Assembly: GCF_006740045.1 (NCBI RefSeq)
Contig: NZ_AP019749.1
Span: forward strand, 2,065,001-2,129,000
Source of the DNA: Comamonas terrigena NBRC 13299
Lineage (GTDB): Bacteria > Pseudomonadota > Gammaproteobacteria > Burkholderiales > Burkholderiaceae_C
Length of the DNA stretch: 64,000 bases
Reading direction: 5' to 3'
Within the stretch, counting starts at the first letter, position 1. Every line of letters starts with the position of its first letter. The translations under genes were made by a program, and so were the position numbers. This document shows, piece by piece, positions 14,472 to 39,582 of this stretch. The notes beneath the pieces were generated by a model. The model saw nothing but the letters and a program-made list of their open reading frames with translations. It was not told the origin of the DNA and did not search any database.

Positions 14472-14848
14472 GGGGCTGTCCTGGTTTCGACGTGGGTTCG
14501 GGATCAGCGCGGTGCATGCCGAGCTTGAGTGACGCTCGTAAATCTCCATTCAAAAAACTAACTGCAAACGACGAACGTTTCGCACTCGCCGCTTAATCCG
14601 GTGAGCCTTGCAACAGCACGTTGATGGGCTGGGCAAGGGGGTAGAAATACCTCCAGGCTGCAAGGGAATTTACATCAGCTGGTTCTGCGCCGGGTACCTT
14701 GGTGTGGAACAAGAAAATAGGGTACTGGCCTTGTTTGCAGCGTGCGCCTGCGCGGCAAACCGGGTGAGATTCAAAACAGAACGCTAAGCATGTAGATCTG
14801 TCTGACGAAGGCTTGCGGACGCGGGTTCAATTCCCGCCAGCTCCACCA
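14472..14848 (+). ncRNA. ssrA: tmRNA (transfer-messenger RNA)
   Basis: The 5' end GGGGCTG pairs with CAGCTCC before the terminal CCA at 14846-14848, forming the tRNA-Ala-like acceptor. The T-arm GCGGGTTCAATTCCCGC is intact. The internal reading frame at 14564-14596 encodes ANDERFALAA followed by TAA, the betaproteobacterial proteolysis tag. The RNA rescues stalled ribosomes together with SmpB. Its last part is the attachment site of the adjoining prophage, which restores a functional 3' end. Confidence 0.97.
14814..14842. repeat. attL core (within ssrA)
   Basis: 29 bp running from the T-arm to the acceptor stem of tmRNA. It recurs at 40099-40127 with a single substitution, which marks the integration crossover segment. 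Confidence 0.9.
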
Positions 14849-29705: not shown

Positions 29706-29990
29706 TTAAATAGCGAACGATGCGCGGTCTTTGTCGGCAATCCACTTCGGGGGTTTGCCGCGGCCAGTCCAGGTCGCACCGGTAGCTGGGTCGCGGTACT
29801 TGGGGGCCACAGTTCCACGGGGGCCGGTTGCGGCTTTCTTGCCACCAAACACATCGTCAGCAGTCAAGCCGTATTGCGCCACCAGTTCACGCGCTTGCTT
29901 CACCGCGTGGGCCAGTTCGGTTTTACGCGCCTCGGCGATCTTGGCTTCCAGTTCGGCTTTTTGTTGAAGCAGGCTTTTGTAGGTGCTCAT
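29706..29990 (-). CDS. H-NS family nucleoid protein
   Basis: 94 residues from ATG 29990 (MSTYKSLLQQKAELEAKI), with GGGGA upstream. An N-terminal oligomerisation coiled coil (about 1-45), a linker, and a C-terminal DNA-binding domain with KYRDPATGATWTGRGKPP and KWI are all present, the size and layout of betaproteobacterial H-NS/BpH3 proteins. A phage-borne H-NS could silence the AT-rich cargo genes of the island or modify host H-NS. The gene at 19926 is a domain-only relative. Confidence 0.9.
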   Translation of the reverse strand: MSTYKSLLQQKAELEAKIAEARKTELAHAVKQARELVAQYGLTADDVFGGKKAATGPRGTVAPKYRDPATGATWTGRGKPPKWIADKDRASFAI

Positions 29991-30207
29991 GTTGGAGATC
30001 CCCTTGTTTGAGAGTTTGCAGTTGCCGTTAGAGAGCTGCGCGTATTGCTCGCGCTTGGGCTTTGCCTTGTGTGCCTTCACCTAAGAAGCAGTGCCCATTC
30101 AGTGATTCTTAATATTATTAAAAATTCTTTAACTTGTGAAATGTAGGGCATTCCATAACAAATCGTTCACCAAACCAGAGTATTTGCTTGACAAGTGCTC
30201 TGGTTTG

Positions 30208-31272: not shown

Positions 31273-31803
31273 CTAGAGGCTTCTGTCTTTGGTGGAGCTG
31301 TTTTGAACGCGCTTGATGAATGAGTCGAAAAGCTTGTCGAACTTCTTGAGGGCGGCTCGCGAGCCTGAGAGGTCGAAGCGCAGAACGGAGAACAGACCGC
31401 TTTCGAGTGGGATGGCAAACCCGATCAGACCGGAGGAGTCCTGAACGATCGTGGTCATTTGCTTATGGGTTGAGAGGATGTACCGGTGATAGTTAGTTCC
31501 ACTAAGGTTGACGACACCAGAGCAGTGAGATGAAATTGCAAAAGATCCGCTAGATGCATTCACGAGGATAGGCGTCTCCGTGCCAGATTCGCATGCGGTC
31601 TTTGAAGTCAGAATGACCCAGAAGCAGTCCTGCATCTCGTCTGAGCAGACTTGCCCGAAACCGTTTCCGCTGTCATTAATGGTCATGGTGACCGGTGCAT
31701 CAATCAAGTCATAAACTTCCCATTTCTGAAAGGTTTGTGCAGACACTCCGACACATGCAAGAGCGAAACACGCAGCAAGTGCGACTTTTCCCAGCGATTT
31801 CAA
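31273..31803 (-). CDS. Secreted protein co-transcribed with the prophage repressor
   Basis: 176 residues from the TTG at 31803, with GAGGG upstream. The N-terminus LKSLGKVALAACFALACVG is a Sec signal peptide; the mature part is polar and carries four cysteines that could form disulfides, and it ends in a helical basic tail (FDKLFDSFIKRVQ). It lies directly behind the repressor gene and before the terminator, so it should be expressed in the lysogen: the position of lambda rex-type conversion genes. No family is recognised. Confidence 0.7.
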   Translation of the reverse strand: MKSLGKVALAACFALACVGVSAQTFQKWEVYDLIDAPVTMTINDSGNGFGQVCSDEMQDCFWVILTSKTACESGTETPILVNASSGSFAISSHCSGVVNLSGTNYHRYILSTHKQMTTIVQDSSGLIGFAIPLESGLFSVLRFDLSGSRAALKKFDKLFDSFIKRVQNSSTKDRSL

Positions 31804-31840
31804 CGGCGTCCCTCTTTCGATAATTAATGATTTTGGGTGA

Positions 31841-32536
31841 TTAAAGTTTTCGACCATTCCATGCCCAAACCACACGGCCCAGCACTCGCACCTCGTGGTC
31901 TCCATTCAGCTCATCCACCGTTTTAATTGTTGGGTTATCCGAGCTGACCTCCAGCATGCCTGACATGCGCATGCGCACGCGCTTGATGTAGGTCTTGCCA
32001 TGCAACTCCAGCACATAGACGCCCTCGTGGGCGGCCGGATCGCGTGAACCAGCATCCACCAGTAGTACGTCGCCATCGCTGAAAGTGGGAGCCATGCTCT
32101 CGCCGTGGGCGTGGATGAATCTCAACTCACGGATGTTGCCTGGCTTAATGTATTGGTTGATCCAGTGCGAGGACAGCGACAAGTCGCCGACCACGTAGTC
32201 AGAGTCCAGCACCTCATTGCCTGGACCCATGCTACCCGAATTGGCGAGCAAGGGGATTCGGACCAGGTCTGTTGCGGTCGGCGTTGCAGGCAGAAATTCT
32301 TCTCGCGGAGCAATAACGGATCCGCTTGTCATGTCGCCTTCGCCAGTGATGAGCCAGTTGGCTCGTACACCCAGCACATTCTCGGCCTTCATCGCTCCAG
32401 AGCGCGAAACACCACGCGTCTCCCAATTTTTCACTGTCTGGGGTGATTCATTGAGCAGGCGGGCAACAGCCGACTGACCCGAGATGTCTCGGAGTAGCTT
32501 GGCGGCTTGATAGAGGCGATCTGCAGAGGTGTGCAT
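31841..32536 (-). CDS. CI-type phage repressor with S24 peptidase domain
   Basis: 231 residues. An N-terminal helix-turn-helix (about 8-60; SAVARLLNESPQTVKNWETR) is joined to a LexA/CI-like S24 domain with the catalytic serine in HAHGESMAPTF and the lysine in KTYIKRVRM. Such repressors self-cleave when RecA is activated, linking induction to DNA damage. GGAGA precedes the start. It is divergent from the Cro-like gene across a cluster of operators. Confidence 0.93.
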   Translation of the reverse strand: MHTSADRLYQAAKLLRDISGQSAVARLLNESPQTVKNWETRGVSRSGAMKAENVLGVRANWLITGEGDMTSGSVIAPREEFLPATPTATDLVRIPLLANSGSMGPGNEVLDSDYVVGDLSLSSHWINQYIKPGNIRELRFIHAHGESMAPTFSDGDVLLVDAGSRDPAAHEGVYVLELHGKTYIKRVRMRMSGMLEVSSDNPTIKTVDELNGDHEVRVLGRVVWAWNGRKL

Positions 32537-32554
32537 CTAGAAATTCTCCGTTTG

Positions 32555-32610
32555 CTAAACAAAATGTTGTTAAACGATGTGTTTGACTTTTGTTTAAACA
32601 ATGTGTTTAA
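32555..32610. promoter_or_regulatory. OR-like operator cluster
   Basis: Operators at 32594-32610 (perfect TTAAAC-N5-GTTTAA), 32570-32586 (one mismatch) and a weaker one at 32555-32571 lie between the repressor start and the Cro-like start. The first two are 24 bp apart, the same spacing as in the OL-like pair. Confidence 0.78.
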
Positions 32611-32617
32611 TTTTGGC

Positions 32618-32835
32618 ATGCACCAAGACGCAGGACTCATATCTCACATGGGCGGAGCCACCAAGCTCGCTGCCCGCTTAGGTTACGACCTAAAAAATGG
32701 CGGTATCCAGCGCATCCAGAACTGGAAAAGGCGTGGCATCCTTCGGGTGTTGAGCGTGACAACCCATGGATCACGCGCATCCGGCGCAACCTACTGAGAA
32801 AGCCAACTCCTACAACCACCCAGGAGGTGGCGTGA
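32618..32835 (+). pseudogene. Cro/YdaS-like regulator with a -1 frameshift
   Basis: The ATG at 32618 starts a small helix-turn-helix protein: HMGGATKLAARLGYDLKNGG, then IQRIQNWKRRGI. Just after RGI (around 32740) the expected continuation PSGVERDNPWITRIRR is found one frame over, indicating loss of one C in CCC. The shifted frame ends with TGA at 32833-32835, overlapping the start of the next gene as phage operons do. As written, the protein ends in unrelated residues at 32797. Cro-like function is inferred from position. Confidence 0.75.
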
Positions 32836-33104
32836 TGTGCGGCCGGCTTCCTCTTTCTGCGGCGTACTTCGATCCGGCCTTCATCAACTGCCTGTCCAGT
32901 GCGATTGCTGAGCCAGAGCTGGCGGAGCAGTTCTGCCGGATCTACGGCTCGAAGCTGAACACCTCGCAGCGCAGCGAGGACGACATGCGCGCCTTCAGCA
33001 AGTTCGTTCACGACTCGATCTACACGTGCTTGCCCGACGAGGCGATCCATTCTTTGCGAGCGAATGCGCTGGCTGGCGAAGCGGGGGAGGTGAGCCATGG
33101 CTAG
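32835..33104 (+). CDS. Hypothetical prophage early protein
   Basis: 89 residues from the ATG at 32835, preceded by AGGAGG at a spacing of seven. Starts MCGRLPLSAAYFDPAFINC; alpha-helical, soluble. Overlaps the next gene by eight bases. First intact gene of the rightward early operon; family not recognised. Confidence 0.75.
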   Translation: MCGRLPLSAAYFDPAFINCLSSAIAEPELAEQFCRIYGSKLNTSQRSEDDMRAFSKFVHDSIYTCLPDEAIHSLRANALAGEAGEVSHG

Positions 33105-33417
33105 CCACAAGCTTCCCGCAGTGGATATGGCCGCAGTGCGAGCAGGAGAGCAGGGTGCTCTAGCCGCGGCTGTTGCTGCTTGTGCTGCGCGCTGGTTCAG
33201 CATGGCCGATTCCCACATCGCATTTCGGCACCACGCATCTCATGTTGCTCGCGAGGCAGGCTCACCCAAGGCAGGCCTTCTGGCTGCGGCCATGGATCTG
33301 AGTGAGCTACTGGCCCAAAGCCCGGATGGTCGGCAAGCCCTGCGTGATTTCGGTTTTGAGCCAGTCGAGAGCCGAGATAGCGCAGTTCCCATTTCAAGCC
33401 AAATGCCGAGGAGGTAA
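33097..33417 (+). CDS. Hypothetical prophage early protein
   Basis: 106 residues, GAGGTGAGCC before the ATG. Ala-rich and helical, starting MASHKLPAVDMAAVRAGEQG. Tightly packed between its neighbours. Function unknown. Confidence 0.7.
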   Translation: MASHKLPAVDMAAVRAGEQGALAAAVAACAARWFSMADSHIAFRHHASHVAREAGSPKAGLLAAAMDLSELLAQSPDGRQALRDFGFEPVESRDSAVPISSQMPRR

Positions 33418-33420
33418 GTC

Positions 33421-33702
33421 ATGGTTGAGTTGCAGACCTTCATATTGCCTGCCGGCACCGTGTACAAGCGAAACGGCATTCCTTTTGCGTTGGCGTACGC
33501 AACGCAGATTTGGTGCCACCCGGACAACTGGGAGCTGATCCGGGATGGCTTTACACCGCAGACCGATGGTCAGGCGTTGGCATGCAGCCAATCTGAGCAT
33601 GGTTTGGATAGTCCCCAGGATGCCCAGCCGTGTTTGACCAGTGCAACTACAAGCAACTCGTCGTTGGAGTCCAGCTTGGATTTCAGCAAGTCTCGTACCT
33701 GA
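33421..33702 (+). CDS. Hypothetical prophage early protein, possibly truncated
   Basis: 93 residues with GAGGAGG upstream. The first about 55 residues (MVELQTFILPAGTVYKRNGI onwards) look like a compact beta domain; the last about 35 are Ser/Thr-rich and overlap the antisense gene 33570-33845, which suggests that the original 3' end was replaced by that cassette. Confidence 0.55.
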   Translation: MVELQTFILPAGTVYKRNGIPFALAYATQIWCHPDNWELIRDGFTPQTDGQALACSQSEHGLDSPQDAQPCLTSATTSNSSLESSLDFSKSRT

Positions 33703-33845
33703 GCTGGCGTCCAGTTTGTGTTGACTATGAAAGTTGACTCCAAGCAGTTCCAGCTGCCCGGAAACGTTTCAATGATGAGTTTTCGCAACTCGGTGTACCG
33801 CTGCCCCAATTTGTGCAAGTCATATGCGATTAGCACTGCGCTCAT
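33570..33845 (-). CDS. SinR/Cas2-like small protein
   Basis: 91 residues from ATG 33845, with GGGAGG upstream. The sequence pattern MSAVLIAYDLHKLGQRYTEL, then FPGSWNCLESTFIV and LLVVALVKHGWASWG, is that of stand-alone proteins annotated as SinR family, which are distantly related to Cas2 (ferredoxin-like fold, possible nuclease or RNA-binding role). No CRISPR array or other cas gene is in the window. It is antisense to the rightward operon and preceded by copy 1 of a 71-bp repeated leader. Confidence 0.75.
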   Translation of the reverse strand: MSAVLIAYDLHKLGQRYTELRKLIIETFPGSWNCLESTFIVNTNWTPAQVRDLLKSKLDSNDELLVVALVKHGWASWGLSKPCSDWLHANA

Positions 33846-33916
33846 GTCCGCCCTCCCTGGCGTTGGTTGTGTAGGAGCTTCCATCGTAGCCCGGGGCAGG
33901 GCGGGCACCCCTTCCA
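33846..33916 (-). repeat. Repeated leader, copy 1
   Basis: 71 bp ending exactly at the ATG of the SinR-like gene. About nine bases differ from copy 2 (34146-34216). Contains the ribosome-binding site and a conserved GC-rich segment followed by a TACGAT -10-like hexamer in the minus direction. Confidence 0.85.
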
Positions 33917-33962
33917 AGCCCAGCCCCGAGGAGGTGAGCCATGGGTGACATGTACGCCGCTA

Positions 33963-34145
33963 CTACAGCTTCTCGCGCCGCGCAATCTCGTTGTCCACCC
34001 GCTGAATGCCATCGAGAAGCATGAAGTACGCCTCTTCGAACGCGGCCGCAACGATGGCTGGTGTGAATTCGCTGTGCTCGTCTTCGAGGTTCGACAGCAG
34101 CGCTGCAGCGAGCGTTGCAGTTGGACCTATCAATTCCTGTTTCAT
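33963..34145 (-). CDS. Small acidic helical protein of repeat cassette 2
   Basis: 60 residues from ATG 34145 (MKQELIGPTATLAAALLSNL), acidic and helical, ending DNEIARREKL. Preceded by leader copy 2. The plus strand holds only a 27-residue frame here (33941-34024), so the minus gene is the better reading. Function unknown. Confidence 0.6.
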   Translation of the reverse strand: MKQELIGPTATLAAALLSNLEDEHSEFTPAIVAAAFEEAYFMLLDGIQRVDNEIARREKL

Positions 34146-34216
34146 GTCCGCTCTCTTTGGTGTTGGTTGTGTAGGAACTTCCATCGTAGCCCAGGGCAGG
34201 GCGGGCACCCATTCCA
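34146..34216 (-). repeat. Repeated leader, copy 2
   Basis: 71 bp directly before the cassette-2 start codon, nearly identical to copy 1; the substitutions fall at all codon positions, which speaks for a regulatory rather than a coding repeat. Confidence 0.85.
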
Positions 34217-34240
34217 TGCCAAACGCAGAGGAGACCCCCC

Positions 34241-34468
34241 ATGGCTGACCCGTACCGCTTTGGCGGCTCCATTTTTGAGTCTGTGCGGCGGCTGAAGAAG
34301 TGCCGCGAGAGGCATGGCTCCAGCCTGTTCGCTAGGGTGACGCGTGGTCGGAAGGCGGCTGCTGCAGTGATGTCTTCGCACTTGCACTCTGCTGCCCCCG
34401 AAGCGTCTCGAGCATGTGAAGGGCGCGGTCCTTCTCGGTCTGCATCAGATCCAGATACGAATTGCTGA
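34241..34468 (+). CDS. Rightward-operon gene start, overlapped by cassette 3
   Basis: 75-residue frame with GAGGAG before the ATG; starts MADPYRFGGSIFESVRRLKK and looks protein-like for about 40 residues, then becomes Ser/Ala/Arg-rich where the antisense gene 34332-34616 overlaps. Probably a truncated early gene. Confidence 0.4.
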   Translation: MADPYRFGGSIFESVRRLKKCRERHGSSLFARVTRGRKAAAAVMSSHLHSAAPEASRACEGRGPSRSASDPDTNC

Positions 34469-34616
34469 CTCCGGTGGGTATGTGCATGTTCTCCCAGGAT
34501 TCGAATCTGATCTCTACGTCCTTGCGGAGCTCTTCCGCAGGGATTCGGGCCAAGAGGCTCATCACCAATAGCCGCAATCCATCGATCTGCGCTTGCAGTT
34601 CTTCTGGTTTTGTCAT
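34332..34616 (-). CDS. Small helical protein of repeat cassette 3
   Basis: 94 residues from ATG 34616, GGGAGAG upstream. Starts MTKPEELQAQIDGLRLLVMS; coiled-coil-like N-terminal half, central region with IRFESWENMHIPTG and a Gln/Ser-rich end. Preceded by leader copy 3. No family is recognised. Confidence 0.65.
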   Translation of the reverse strand: MTKPEELQAQIDGLRLLVMSLLARIPAEELRKDVEIRFESWENMHIPTGVSNSYLDLMQTEKDRALHMLETLRGQQSASAKTSLQQPPSDHASP

Positions 34617-34686
34617 GTCCGCTCTCCCTGGGGTTGGTTGTGTAAGCCGCACCAGCATAGACCAGCGCAGGGCGGCCACCCCTACA
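34617..34686 (-). repeat. Repeated leader, copy 3
   Basis: The most diverged copy: the ribosome-binding-site half (GTCCGCTCTCCCTGGGGTTG onwards on the plus strand) is conserved and the distal half is less so, with a TATGCT hexamer where copies 1 and 2 have TACGAT. Confidence 0.7.
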
Positions 34687-34825
34687 CATCGCGTAGCCCC
34701 AGCGCGATCGCACGCAGTGCGCGTGCCTCAATCCTTCCAAGCCACTTCTCGGCCCGTTCAATGGCTGCTTACACCTGCTCTGGTGTCAGCGCTTCGGGCT
34801 TGGGTGGTTGTGGCTTGGGTTCCAT
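34682..34825 (-). pseudogene. Small antisense gene with an in-frame TAA
   Basis: From ATG 34825 (GAGAGAG upstream) the frame reads MEPKPQPPKPEALTPEQV, meets TAA at 34769-34771, then continues AAIERAEKWLGRIEAR to a TAG at 34682. The second half is a clean amphipathic helix. A CAA/CAG-to-TAA/TAG-type change (Gln) would explain the break. Its 3' end abuts leader copy 3. Confidence 0.5.
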
Positions 34826-34901
34826 CTCTCTCTTTCTTCGTTGGGCCAAGTGTCGGATCTACCCCGAGCGGCTGCAACGTCCGTTTTTCTGGAGCCCGGA
34901 C

Positions 34902-34991
34902 ATGAACTCCCTTGATGCATTGCGGCGCATGGTTGCCAACTACCCGGGAGGCCGGGCAGCCCTACAGCATCCGCTGGACCCTGGCCGATAA
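34902..34991 (+). pseudogene. Truncated CII-like regulator at a deletion junction
   Basis: The frame starts MNSLDALRRMVANYPGGRAA, the opening of phage CII-like (CP76-type) regulators, but loses similarity at about 34958 and stops at 34991. Immediately afterwards a different frame encodes a tail-protein C-terminus. This looks like the left lip of a large internal deletion. Confidence 0.5.
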
Positions 34992-35175
34992 CACCACGGT
35001 GGAGCTGGGCGCCGAAGGCGTGATTGCGGTGGGCTTTGCCTTGCTGGCCCACACCGACGGCATCCACCAGCGCAGCCGGCAGATCTACGCCCAGATCCAG
35101 GCGGCACAGACGGCGGAGGAGGTGGCGGGCATCAGCTGGACGCAAGAGCCCGCAGAGATCGAAACCGCCGCTTGA
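34958..35175 (+). pseudogene. C-terminal fragment of a phage tail-fibre type protein
   Basis: From about 34958 the frame encodes PYSIRWTLADNTTVELGAEG, then HTDGIHQRSRQIYAQIQAA, resembling the DUF4376-like C-terminal region found in phage tail proteins, and ends normally at 35175. No start codon of its own fits; the 5' part is missing. It is the right lip of the deletion. Confidence 0.55.
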
Positions 35176-35194
35176 GCACGAACAGGAGCCACAC

Positions 35195-35410
35195 ATGGAC
35201 AACGACAACGCAATCAACCCGCGCCTGGCCGAAGTGCTGAACGCCAATGTGGGCAACAAGATCACGCCGGAGCTGTCGGCGGGCCTGCAGGGAACGCTGC
35301 AGCAGCTGATGAACACCATTGCGCTGGAGGCCTACGAGGCTGGGCTAGCGGCCCCCCGCGACGGCGGCCGCGCTGCAGGTGAGGTGACGGATGTGGAGCC
35401 CAAGTGCTGA
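35195..35410 (+). CDS. Hypothetical phage protein behind the tail gene
   Basis: 71 residues from ATG 35195, with AGGAG upstream: MDNDNAINPRLAEVLNANVG followed by a helical segment. Its place between the tail-fibre end and the lysis genes is usual for small tail or lysis accessory proteins. Function unknown. Confidence 0.65.
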   Translation: MDNDNAINPRLAEVLNANVGNKITPELSAGLQGTLQQLMNTIALEAYEAGLAAPRDGGRAAGEVTDVEPKC

Positions 35411-37083: not shown

Positions 37084-39582
37084 ATGCCAAGCCATATTAA
37101 ATCATCTAGTAGCGGCTTTATTGGGGTGCTGCAAAAAAAGCCAATGAGATTTTTTAAAATAACTGATTTTGATGGCGCGCTTGCTAAGTCATTTATGATT
37201 ATGGCGCTAAGTTTTTCTGGTGGAGTAGGGTGGGCAGCGGAATACGTTGATAATGAATACCGACCAATATCAGGAGGACAGTGGAATATTGTAGGTGATC
37301 TGGTTGTAGGTGATTCTGGTTTGGGATATTTATTTGTTGATAATCAAGCTAAAATAAAAAATGAGAATGGCTATCTTGGCTATGCGCCTCTTAGCGTTGG
37401 TCAAGTTATTTTGACAGGGAATAACACTAGCTGGACAAATACAGGTTTTTTGAGTATTGGCGTGGATGGAGATGCTGTTCTCTGGATTGAAGATGGCGCT
37501 ACTGTGATCAGTAGTGACACTCTTATCGCGGGTTCTGGCGGGAGCACTTCTCAGCTTAATTTGAATGGCACCTCCCTTGCACGCGGAAAGCTCTCGACGG
37601 GCTACTTGATGAAGGGCGCGGGTATTGCATTATTCCAGTGGGATGGCGGTATATTGCAGGCGCGCAATAATGAGGCGGATTTCTTTCTTAATTTTTCTCG
37701 TTACGAAATCGAGATAGGTAATGAAGGGGCTTTTTTTGACACCAATGGCTACGATGTTGGAATCAGCACCGACCTGATCGCCACTGGAAGCGGCGGCTTC
37801 ACAAAGATTGGCTCGGGTTCTTTAACTCTTAGCGGTAATAATGATTACTCGGGCGGAACATTCATTAGTGGTGGTACGCTGGTGGCAGACAATAACAGTG
37901 CTTTAGGGTCTGGTGCTGTGACGGTTGGCGGCGCTGGGACAACTGGCACCCTGAAGGTCAATGCAGGAATTACGCTTGCTAATAGTGTTACGCTTAATAA
38001 TGGCGGCACCTTGTCCGGATTTGGCGCGGTGGGTAATACGGTTGTAGAAAGCGGTGGTGTTATTTCTCCAGGGCAATCAGGGTCCATTGGTACGTTGACT
38101 GTCAACGGTAACTTGGAGATGAAAACTGGTGCTGTCTACCACGTGCAAGCCGCCCCCAATAGCAGCGTGAGCAGCCTCATTAATGTGACAGGCATAGCCA
38201 CATTGGCCGGAAATGTGCTGCATGTAGGCAATGAATCTAATGCAAGCACAGATTTCCAAGTGGGCAAGACTTACACCATTTTGCACGCAAGCCAGATCAA
38301 CGGCGTTTTTAGCGGCGCATCGTCTAACTACGCTTACCTGGATGCGACCCTGGGCTACCTGCAAACCAACAGCGTGACCACAGACGTAACACTGCAACTG
38401 CAGCGCAAGACCAGCAATACGGGCGGTGGCAATATGGGCTTTGCTGAGCTAGCTGAAACACGCAACCAGTCGTCAGTTGCCAATGCGATCAACAGCCTGC
38501 CCAGCAGCAGCGCGCTTTACCAGTTTGTGGAAACGTTACCAGCAGGTACACCAGCCACAGTGCTGGCCAGCCTGTCCGGCGATGCGCAGGCCAGCGTAGG
38601 CAGCAGCTTGGTGGGCCTGGGCGCCTATGCTCCTAGCGTCAGCAGCCAGCATCTGCGCAACAACATGACCGCCGGTTTCCGTACCGGTGCCCCGGTAGCG
38701 CAAAGCGATGGCCCGCTGCCCGCATCGGCCTGGCCATCGTCCAAGGCCCTGCCGGCCTGGGCCGAGGTGGTGGGTCACTGGCAGCGTTATGACGGTGATG
38801 GCAATGCCGCCCAGCTGAAGCAGCGCACCACGGGCCTGTTCCTGGGCATGGACGAGGAAGTGGGCACCAGCGGCTGGCGCCTGGGCGGTTCGCTGGGTTA
38901 CACCAATGCCAGCGGCAAGGTGGCAGACCGTTCCTCCGAGTCGGACGTGAACAGTTACAGCGCGGCCGTCTACGGCGGCAAGAGCTTTGGCACCGGCACG
39001 GGCCCGCGCATCAATGTGCTGGGTGGTCTGGCCTATACCTGGCACGACATCGAGACCACACGCCGTGTGACCAGCCTGGGCCAGACCCTGAAGGCCGACT
39101 ACAGCGCTCACACGGCGCAGCTGTTTGCCGAGGTGGGTTATGCCATCGGCCAGTACGACAAGGTGGGGTTTGAGCCCTTCGCGGGCGTAAGCCTGGGCCA
39201 GCAGCGCACCGGCAGCTTCCAGGAACGCGGCGGTTTTGCCGCGCTGCAGGGCCGCAGCAGCACCGACGACCTGGCCAGCACCACCTTGGGTCTGCGTGTG
39301 CACAGCGACTTCCAACTGGCCGGCAAGGAAGGCCGCCTGCGCGCCACCGTAGGCTGGCGCCATGCGTTTGGCGATGTGACAGCCAAGAAGACCATGGCGT
39401 TTGAAGGCAGCCAGAACTTCACCGTGGCCGGCACGCCGCTGGCGCGCAATACGGCCGTGCTGGGCCTGGAGGCCGATGTGGCACTCAGCCGCAGCGCCGC
39501 GCTGGTGCTGGGCTATCAGGGCGAGATGGGTAGCGGCCAGCGTGACCACTCTGCCAGTGTGAAGCTGCGCTGGGCGTTCTAA
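37084..39582 (+). CDS. Autotransporter (type Va) with PATR repeats
   Basis: 832 residues. An extended signal region (about 1-50) with a second hydrophobic part ending GGVGWAAE, then a beta-helical passenger with passenger-associated repeats (NDYSGGTFISGGTLV; GVISPGQSGSIGTL), an alpha-helical linker and a 12-strand-type C-terminal barrel (about 560-832) ending in WAF. It secretes its own passenger to the cell surface, where adhesion or aggregation is likely; no protease motif is seen. The first 60 percent is AT-rich and the barrel-encoding part GC-rich like the host, a mosaic. It lies between the lysis genes and attR, the usual place for conversion genes. Confidence 0.92.
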   Translation: MPSHIKSSSSGFIGVLQKKPMRFFKITDFDGALAKSFMIMALSFSGGVGWAAEYVDNEYRPISGGQWNIVGDLVVGDSGLGYLFVDNQAKIKNENGYLGYAPLSVGQVILTGNNTSWTNTGFLSIGVDGDAVLWIEDGATVISSDTLIAGSGGSTSQLNLNGTSLARGKLSTGYLMKGAGIALFQWDGGILQARNNEADFFLNFSRYEIEIGNEGAFFDTNGYDVGISTDLIATGSGGFTKIGSGSLTLSGNNDYSGGTFISGGTLVADNNSALGSGAVTVGGAGTTGTLKVNAGITLANSVTLNNGGTLSGFGAVGNTVVESGGVISPGQSGSIGTLTVNGNLEMKTGAVYHVQAAPNSSVSSLINVTGIATLAGNVLHVGNESNASTDFQVGKTYTILHASQINGVFSGASSNYAYLDATLGYLQTNSVTTDVTLQLQRKTSNTGGGNMGFAELAETRNQSSVANAINSLPSSSALYQFVETLPAGTPATVLASLSGDAQASVGSSLVGLGAYAPSVSSQHLRNNMTAGFRTGAPVAQSDGPLPASAWPSSKALPAWAEVVGHWQRYDGDGNAAQLKQRTTGLFLGMDEEVGTSGWRLGGSLGYTNASGKVADRSSESDVNSYSAAVYGGKSFGTGTGPRINVLGGLAYTWHDIETTRRVTSLGQTLKADYSAHTAQLFAEVGYAIGQYDKVGFEPFAGVSLGQQRTGSFQERGGFAALQGRSSTDDLASTTLGLRVHSDFQLAGKEGRLRATVGWRHAFGDVTAKKTMAFEGSQNFTVAGTPLARNTAVLGLEADVALSRSAALVLGYQGEMGSGQRDHSASVKLRWAF

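Follow-up and report, generated by a model that had tools for sequence, protein, structure and literature searches.

Phage morons, or lysogenic-conversion genes, are small accessory genes that lie on the lysogenic strand and differ between related phages. In integron cassettes, many unrelated small open reading frames (ORFs) are joined to a folded attC site that is conserved in structure and variable in sequence, with R'' and R' boxes reading RYYYAAC and GTTRRRY. In the portions of the T4 literature cited here, hairpins that sequester a ribosome-binding site (RBS) and are combined with an internal promoter are described for I-TevI, I-TevII, I-TevIII and segB of T4 and mobE of Aeh1 (PMC2988022) and, among T4-like phages, also for genes e and soc (PMC2988022, PMC3014915). 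The cited part of a report on cluster K mycobacteriophages describes SAS, a fixed 13-bp sequence of unknown function at the starts of many different genes; about half of the SAS copies have an upstream inverted repeat (ESAS), the arms of which have a consensus sequence (PMC3203893). Here we describe a leader of about 70 nucleotides (nt) that stands directly before three different small genes in a 64,000-nt stretch of the Comamonas terrigena NBRC 13299 genome (contig NZ_AP019749.1, positions 2,065,001 to 2,129,000; hereafter the window, in whose coordinates its features are given). The three leader-plus-gene cassettes lie in the apparent right early operon of a prophage, antisense to that operon and on the same strand as a CI-like repressor gene. 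That the leader is a real, conserved and structured dock can be stated with high confidence. More tentatively, sequence comparison leads us to favor a reading in which it is a fixed expression dock for exchangeable ORFs, with an internal promoter and an RBS that is hidden in read-through RNA.

The leaders and the genes behind them, referred to as cargo, are as follows:

33846..33914, minus strand: leader copy 1, adjoining the start codon at 33845 (covariance model E 1.2e-21), with a 5' arm at about 33907-33891, the -10-like hexamer TACGAT at 33888-33883, a loop at 33880-33867 and a 3' arm containing the Shine-Dalgarno (SD) sequence at about 33862-33846
33570..33845, minus strand: cargo 1, 91 amino acids (aa), phrog_1090
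34146..34214, minus strand: leader copy 2, with the -10-like hexamer TACGAT at 34188-34183 (model E 2.1e-19)
33963..34145, minus strand: cargo 2, 60 aa, from a family with the N-terminus MKQELIGPTA
34617..34685, minus strand: leader copy 3, the most diverged, with the -10-like hexamer TATGCT at 34659-34654 (model E 3.3e-12)
34332..34616, minus strand: cargo 3, 94 aa

The original prediction, made from the letters of the window alone, had placed three small minus-strand genes here, each preceded up to its ATG by a common leader with an RBS and a -10-like hexamer, and all of these elements are present. Over the 69 nt 5' of the ATG, copies 1 and 2 are 90% identical, copies 1 and 3 78%, and copies 2 and 3 77%, while copy 1 finds no match above 55% in 20 mononucleotide-shuffled windows. 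The seven differences between copies 1 and 2 are split 3/2/2 by codon position, in agreement with the predicted divergence at all codon positions, and the behavior of the leaders fits non-coding regulatory DNA. Copies 1 and 2 are also 82% identical across 114 nt, a similarity that extends into the start of the divergent plus-strand ORF and would suit a tandem duplication of a gene start, or coding N-termini, without wider meaning. Such an explanation is almost certainly wrong, as the leader occurs before unrelated genes in many phage contigs and genomes and its stems covary.

Beyond the window, a core pattern, ATGGNNGNTNCNACACAACCA, matches at least 120 stretches in IMG/VR viral contigs, compared with 16 for a chance-level control in which the pattern carries one extra N. 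The viral matches listed comprise 124 hits, which yield 105 distinct sequences with enough flank; 18 of these were judged by eye to be chance matches, leaving 87 viral leaders, or 68 after an identity filter. BLAST searches of 299 host-family genomes, assessed by E-value and layout, place the leader in seven other genomes (G146, G219, G015, G057, G079, G188 and G018), each time with different small genes behind it. With the covariance model (E <=1e-3), the leader is found in 28 of 399 host-family genomes, the host's own included, and these span 21 of the 141 host-family genera. Outside the family, matches are confined to three of 300 genomes in a sample of the order and two of 274 in a sample of the class, all of them weak; by eye, L224, L225 and L220 look real and L219 and L221 are doubtful. 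BLAST of the host genome revealed no further convincing copy: the next-best place, G000:C1:3060471 (E 4e-4), is without the leader layout, and all others have E >0.1. No convincing match was found among INPHARED phages for two leader variants and the window's own, or among PLSDB plasmids for the two variants. Likewise, among the matches listed in searches of an open-licence library (core decamer, morons, prophage small genes, immunity regions, boundary sequences), none gave an account of the element. The leader is read as an element of temperate phages of the host family and its neighbors.

Going beyond the original prediction, the aligned sequences identify the leader as a covarying hairpin that contains the RBS. 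The hairpin, about 70 nt long, ends at the start codon. Its outer helix, which takes in the SD, has its ends near GG[T/C]G and at the start codon. Further in come a bulge of 4 nt whose last letter is A, an inner helix of 6 bp around ATGG/CCAT, and a 14-nt loop ending in ACACAA. Conservation is seen in the loop and in a TAnnnT hexamer located at the bulge; the SD lies within the 3' arm. The arms vary between phages yet stay largely complementary, and the outer stems adjoining the ATG vary in step from leader to leader.

Support for the helix consists of counts on a named structure, with controls. In an alignment of 66 leaders (63 viral and the three window copies, with three L102 and two L070 rows left out), which carries a bias at those letters that the search pattern prescribes, 78.0% of cells are paired, compared with at most 45.1% in slid registers; double-changed cells number 142, compared with 63.5 after shuffling (0 of 500 shuffles). 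A second alignment holds the 38 distinct genome leaders found by the model, window copies included; it was fitted to the model and therefore leans toward the structure, and shuffling leaves relatedness in place. Here 77.3% of cells are paired (at most 45.2% when slid), with 123 double-changed cells compared with 42.7 after shuffling, and 21 of 22 pairs are changed on both sides. With the badly aligned L221 and second L197 rows left out, the counted set falls from 36 leaders, including the three window copies, to 33 without the window and to 27 once members of the first alignment and pattern-fitting rows are removed. These 27 independent leaders have 78.3% of cells paired, compared with at most 45.4% in slid registers and 59.8% after shuffling. 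They contain 95 double-changed cells, compared with 32.5 after shuffling (maximum 45 in 500 shuffles), and again 21 of 22 pairs are changed on both sides.

Over the leaders tested, no Rfam 15 family scores at or above its threshold. At the Rfam gathering score, the only match in the whole window is the transfer-messenger RNA (tmRNA) gene at 14472-14848 on the plus strand (RF00023, 192 bits). A search of 33300-35300 to E 5 yields snoZ6 over leader copy 2 on the plus strand, at chance level (E 2.2; 16.5 bits, where the threshold is 35), as well as a single match elsewhere. Matches in 15 further loci (gathering score, three of them to E 2) and in 20 genome loci (E 0.1) lie away from the leaders. 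Those in leader-bearing loci include Burkholderiales-2 at L087 12750-12824, C4 antisense RNA at L102 58-141, and int-alpA at L212 2319-2387.

The decisive check proposed with the original prediction was whether a constant leader is followed by a variable set of small genes, and in phage contigs and related genomes it is. The cargo was examined behind 141 leaders, made up of 34 of 44 and 104 of 108 rows of leader matches together with the three window copies; the rows left out are L221, nine that are window sequence, three truncated at contig ends (L100, L147 and L143), and a weak partial match (L099). An ORF of at least 35 aa lies behind 136 of the 141 leaders, and the chosen start codon is ATG in 138 cases and GTG in three. 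Where the spacing between ACACAACCA and the start codon could be measured, it was 18 nt in 83 of 114 cases. In total, 118 distinct cargo proteins form 50 phmmer clusters, 30 of them singletons. When 51 cargo representatives were scanned, clear family matches were limited to DUF2513, KTSC, and a ClpP-like protease. For the remainder, Pfam and NCBIfam gave weak matches, a few representatives matched PHROGs whose function is unknown, and others matched nothing. PADLOC returned three matches for the same representatives, the best being a weak WYL match (E 6e-4). By eye, many cargo proteins of 60-100 aa are similar in pattern and may constitute one very diverged superfamily.

For cargo 1, structure prediction gives a ferredoxin fold resembling Cas2 and GhoS (mean predicted local distance difference test score 84). 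The best Protein Data Bank match of the model is the Cas2 structure 5zyf (E 4.9e-3, template modeling score ~0.6), with none below 0.001, making the predicted Cas2/GhoS-like assignment suggestive only. Cargo 2 has Pfam matches below the cut-off only and no PHROG match, and its phmmer cluster accounts for 13 of the 118 cargo proteins. Cargo 3 has no Pfam match up to E 1 and a PHROG match at E 0.35 only. Cargo homologues are rare, occurring in two and eight genomes, own included, in the cargo searches of 349 genomes. Scanning eight cargo-homologue loci with the covariance model gave one leader match, ahead of a different gene. In addition, L229 and L231 have, by eye, look-alike hairpins just upstream of Cas2-like homologues of cargo 1, which the model did not detect.

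Pairwise comparison locates the exchange of cargo at the start codon. A total of 117 pairs, not independent because members are shared and including some tandem copies within one phage, have the leader and ~20 to >500 nt of upstream flank in common while the cargo differs. In 116 of them, homology stops between -15 and +11 nt around the ATG, mostly at +3 to +6; the remaining pair, L070 and the window, carries the same cargo, its start mis-chosen in L070. L070, a relative 98.5% identical over 5 kb, has ACG in place of the cassette 1 ATG at ~2459-2461, possibly a decayed cassette. The close relatives L173 and L074 carry a KTSC-like gene instead of cargo 1 and diverge from the start codon on. Across the 59 pairs with a long common flank and a differing ORF, mean identity is 0.92 in the leader and 0.87 in the flank; the leader is less alike than the flank in 18 of the 59, two of which stem from the mis-chosen L070 start. 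A leader that is on average more alike than its flank while the ORF differs suggests a fixed dock whose ORF is swapped at the ATG. The predicted modular leader-plus-cargo units therefore need revision: the cargo does appear to be exchanged as a unit, but the leader does not simply travel with it.

Past the cargo, homology, where found, resumes anywhere from overlapping the stop codon to >1 kb beyond it, and the 150 nt after 48 cargo stop codons contain no k-mer common beyond chance. Upstream of the leaders, GCGCGGC occurs in 16 of 50 stretches, compared with at most nine in shuffles, an excess that may reflect flanks common to related phages. A folded single-strand recombination site of the attC type, serving cassette insertion and removal, would place the swap point at the foot of the hairpin, where it is found, and would match the cargo variety known from integron cassettes; with DNA parameters, moreover, the opposite strand folds slightly more stably in 66 of 85 non-redundant leaders. 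However, R''/R' boxes are present at the hairpin feet of none of these 85 leaders, no motif is shared after the stop, and homology resumes at variable distances, while ordinary homologous recombination at a shared leader would leave the same 5' boundary. This candidate was accordingly set aside as unsupported, and we consider it very unlikely.

Within the 27 independent leaders, the TAnnnT hexamer has T at its first position in 21, A at its second in 27, and T at its sixth in 26; the A at the second position is unpaired in the model. At the -35 position, outside the helix, G residues are found in 20, 24, and 23 of the 27. In the favored reading, TAnnnT would be a -10 element accompanied by GGG[T/C]G, an unusual sequence for the -35 position, and the mRNA would start inside the hairpin. 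An mRNA from this internal promoter would be without the 5' arm, leaving the RBS free, while RNA reading in, for example from an upstream tandem cassette, would have both arms and hide it. Each swapped-in gene could then be expressed solely from its own dock, whatever the surrounding transcription, in the window on the lysogenic (cI) strand, and the shared leader would supply homology for exchange of the next gene. Folding predictions for 107 of the 119 distinct leaders are consistent with such a switch. The SD is predicted to have an unpaired fraction of 0.23 in read-through RNA and 0.50 in RNA starting 7 nt past the hexamer, being more open in 100 of 107. Shuffling the 5' part gives 0.43, more open in 97 of 107.

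Several of the same features could also mark a double-stranded DNA element, namely a promoter with an inverted-repeat operator for a common host or phage regulator, the RNA pairing being incidental. A -10-like hexamer, a G-rich -35 position, and a conserved downstream region all suit such an element, and ESAS, as portrayed in the cited part of the cluster K report, is an inverted repeat situated ahead of gene starts (PMC3203893). However, a protein binding DNA as a dimer would be expected to fix the arms and leave the center free, whereas the leader arms vary yet stay complementary; we regard this explanation as distinctly unlikely.

A number of results weigh against the favored reading, the strongest of them, as regards a simple mRNA hairpin, being the puzzling strand bias of covariation. 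RNA of the opposite strand folds more stably in 83 of the 85 leaders (mean -36.7 compared with -28.2 kcal/mol; z-scores -3.90 and -2.26), as it does in 26 of the 27 independent leaders. Most gene-strand mismatches are C.A, equivalent to G.U on the other strand: C.A/A.C number 163 and G.U 55, or 89 and 30 when alignment pairs 9-74 and 11-72 near the start codon are left out. This bias is the reverse of that expected for a hairpin selected in mRNA and thus weakens the simple mRNA-hairpin interpretation; a hairpin acting in the mRNA alone was the first reading considered. It is also why confidence in the putative mechanism, an internal promoter combined with an RBS hidden in read-through RNA, is only moderate. 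Further, full sigma-70 consensus promoters in 31500-35300 number zero (1.2 expected), and the consensus scan gave no -35 consensus and no promoter call at the leaders. The SD of window copy 3 is not predicted to be more hidden in read-through RNA (0.55 unpaired, compared with 0.46), and terminators behind the cargo are at chance level (3 compared with 2.8 expected, n=117). RNAalifold on the 66-leader alignment gave 7 pairs (-2.8 kcal/mol) and did not recover the long helix, the probable reason being the many C.A cells of the gene strand.

These strand data invite the proposal that the hairpin works in RNA of the opposite strand, such that lytic transcripts would carry it, the cassettes often being antisense to neighboring phage genes. 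There the hairpin could serve in antisense action, processing, antitermination, or protection, or could silence cassette mRNA in the lytic phase. Gene order is in keeping with it. The upstream neighbor lies on the opposite strand at 71 of 94 sites, as called by a crude codon-score gene caller, and replication- or tail-like genes stand there by eye in several of the 12 loci viewed. Yet the hairpin is bound to the gene-strand SD and start codon at near-constant spacing, the proposal would require read-through from variable cargo, and the hairpin would lie at the far end of the antisense stretch. We therefore think it rather unlikely that opposite-strand RNA accounts for the leader. By the same caller, the downstream neighbor is on the same strand at 46 of 87 sites. 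In several of the 12 loci, by eye, the cassette strand carries a helix-turn-helix or CI-like gene downstream, with replication genes on the opposite strand, and the L083 leader sits amid tail-like genes.

A further possibility, though still on the unlikely side, is that the leader represents a new class of phage gene dock: a hairpin conserved in structure but variable in sequence would adjoin the start codon directly and be under selection on the non-gene strand. Such a dock would be shared by a lytic transcript and a lysogenic gene, silencing the cargo in lytic read-through and allowing its expression in lysogeny, and would serve as the exchange point.

The remaining features of the cassette locus in the window are as follows:

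31841..32536, minus strand: CI/LexA-like repressor (Peptidase_S24, phrog_4)
33421..33567, plus strand: start of an ORF (33421-33702) whose frame continues into the antisense of cargo 1
33915..33962, plus strand: start block GAGGAGGTGAGCC with ATG at 33941, immediately upstream of leader copy 1 and resembling blocks at 33388 and 34208
34215..34331, plus strand: start block with ATG at 34241, immediately upstream of leader copy 2, whose frame continues into the antisense of cargo 3

The plus-strand ORFs have their own repeated start block, GAGGAG...CATGG, at 33388-33428, 33908-33948, and 34208-34248. It is plausible that these genes were shortened through cassette insertion, as originally suggested, and this is retained as a candidate interpretation. 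At 32806-32836 on the plus strand, CTCCTACAACCACCCAGGAGGTGGC precedes a start codon and resembles the leader loop and 3' arm without the 5' arm. Two small proteins are H-NS-like by eye, one at 29706-30080 on the minus strand of the window, near the prophage, and the other at L109 4952-5239 on the plus strand, beside a leader. An 832-aa autotransporter-like ORF (by eye) at 37084-39582 on the plus strand directly follows the lysis-like genes of the prophage.

If the tentatively favored reading, a fixed dock with an internal promoter and a conditionally hidden RBS, is correct, it explains how small accessory genes can go on being traded among temperate phages with their expression intact: the regulatory element stays and the ORF alone changes. 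The leader also provides a handle for collecting about 50 clusters of small phage proteins, almost wholly unknown, with a common expression context. Natural guesses for the function of this cargo are superinfection exclusion and host modification, but PADLOC recognized almost none of it.

Compared with known systems, the cassettes resemble morons in being small, variable genes on the lysogenic strand, but differ in that terminators behind them are at chance level and in that their leader is structured and shared. As in integron cassettes, unrelated small ORFs are tied to a folded site that is conserved in structure and variable in sequence; unlike attC, the leader lies 5' of the gene and has the RBS inside, with no common motif behind the gene. 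In the manner of SAS and ESAS, as far as the cited part of the cluster K report describes them, a repeated element stands directly at the starts of different gene families, here 50 cargo clusters. The 13-bp SAS itself, GGGATAGGAGCCC, has no window match at up to two mismatches (1.5 expected by chance), and in contrast to the consensus arms of ESAS, the leader arms vary with compensation around a constant loop; the hosts differ as well. The resemblance to the T4 type, within the cited portions of those reports, is that the RBS of a small inserted gene is predicted to be hidden by a hairpin in read-through RNA, and that the putative promoter is placed so that the gene's own RNA would be without the 5' strand. 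As in the T4 type, the SD is predicted to be base-paired when transcripts read through and to become accessible in the shorter RNA, except at window copy 3. In T4-type hairpins, pairing would be favored on the mRNA strand, whereas here it is better on the opposite one; in addition, a single family of hairpins, its loop conserved, stands before 50 unrelated gene clusters, with gene exchange at the ATG. As a working analogue, the hairpin of the T4 homing endonuclease genes comes closest, and as a genomic analogue SAS/ESAS, with the leader fitting the full definition of neither.

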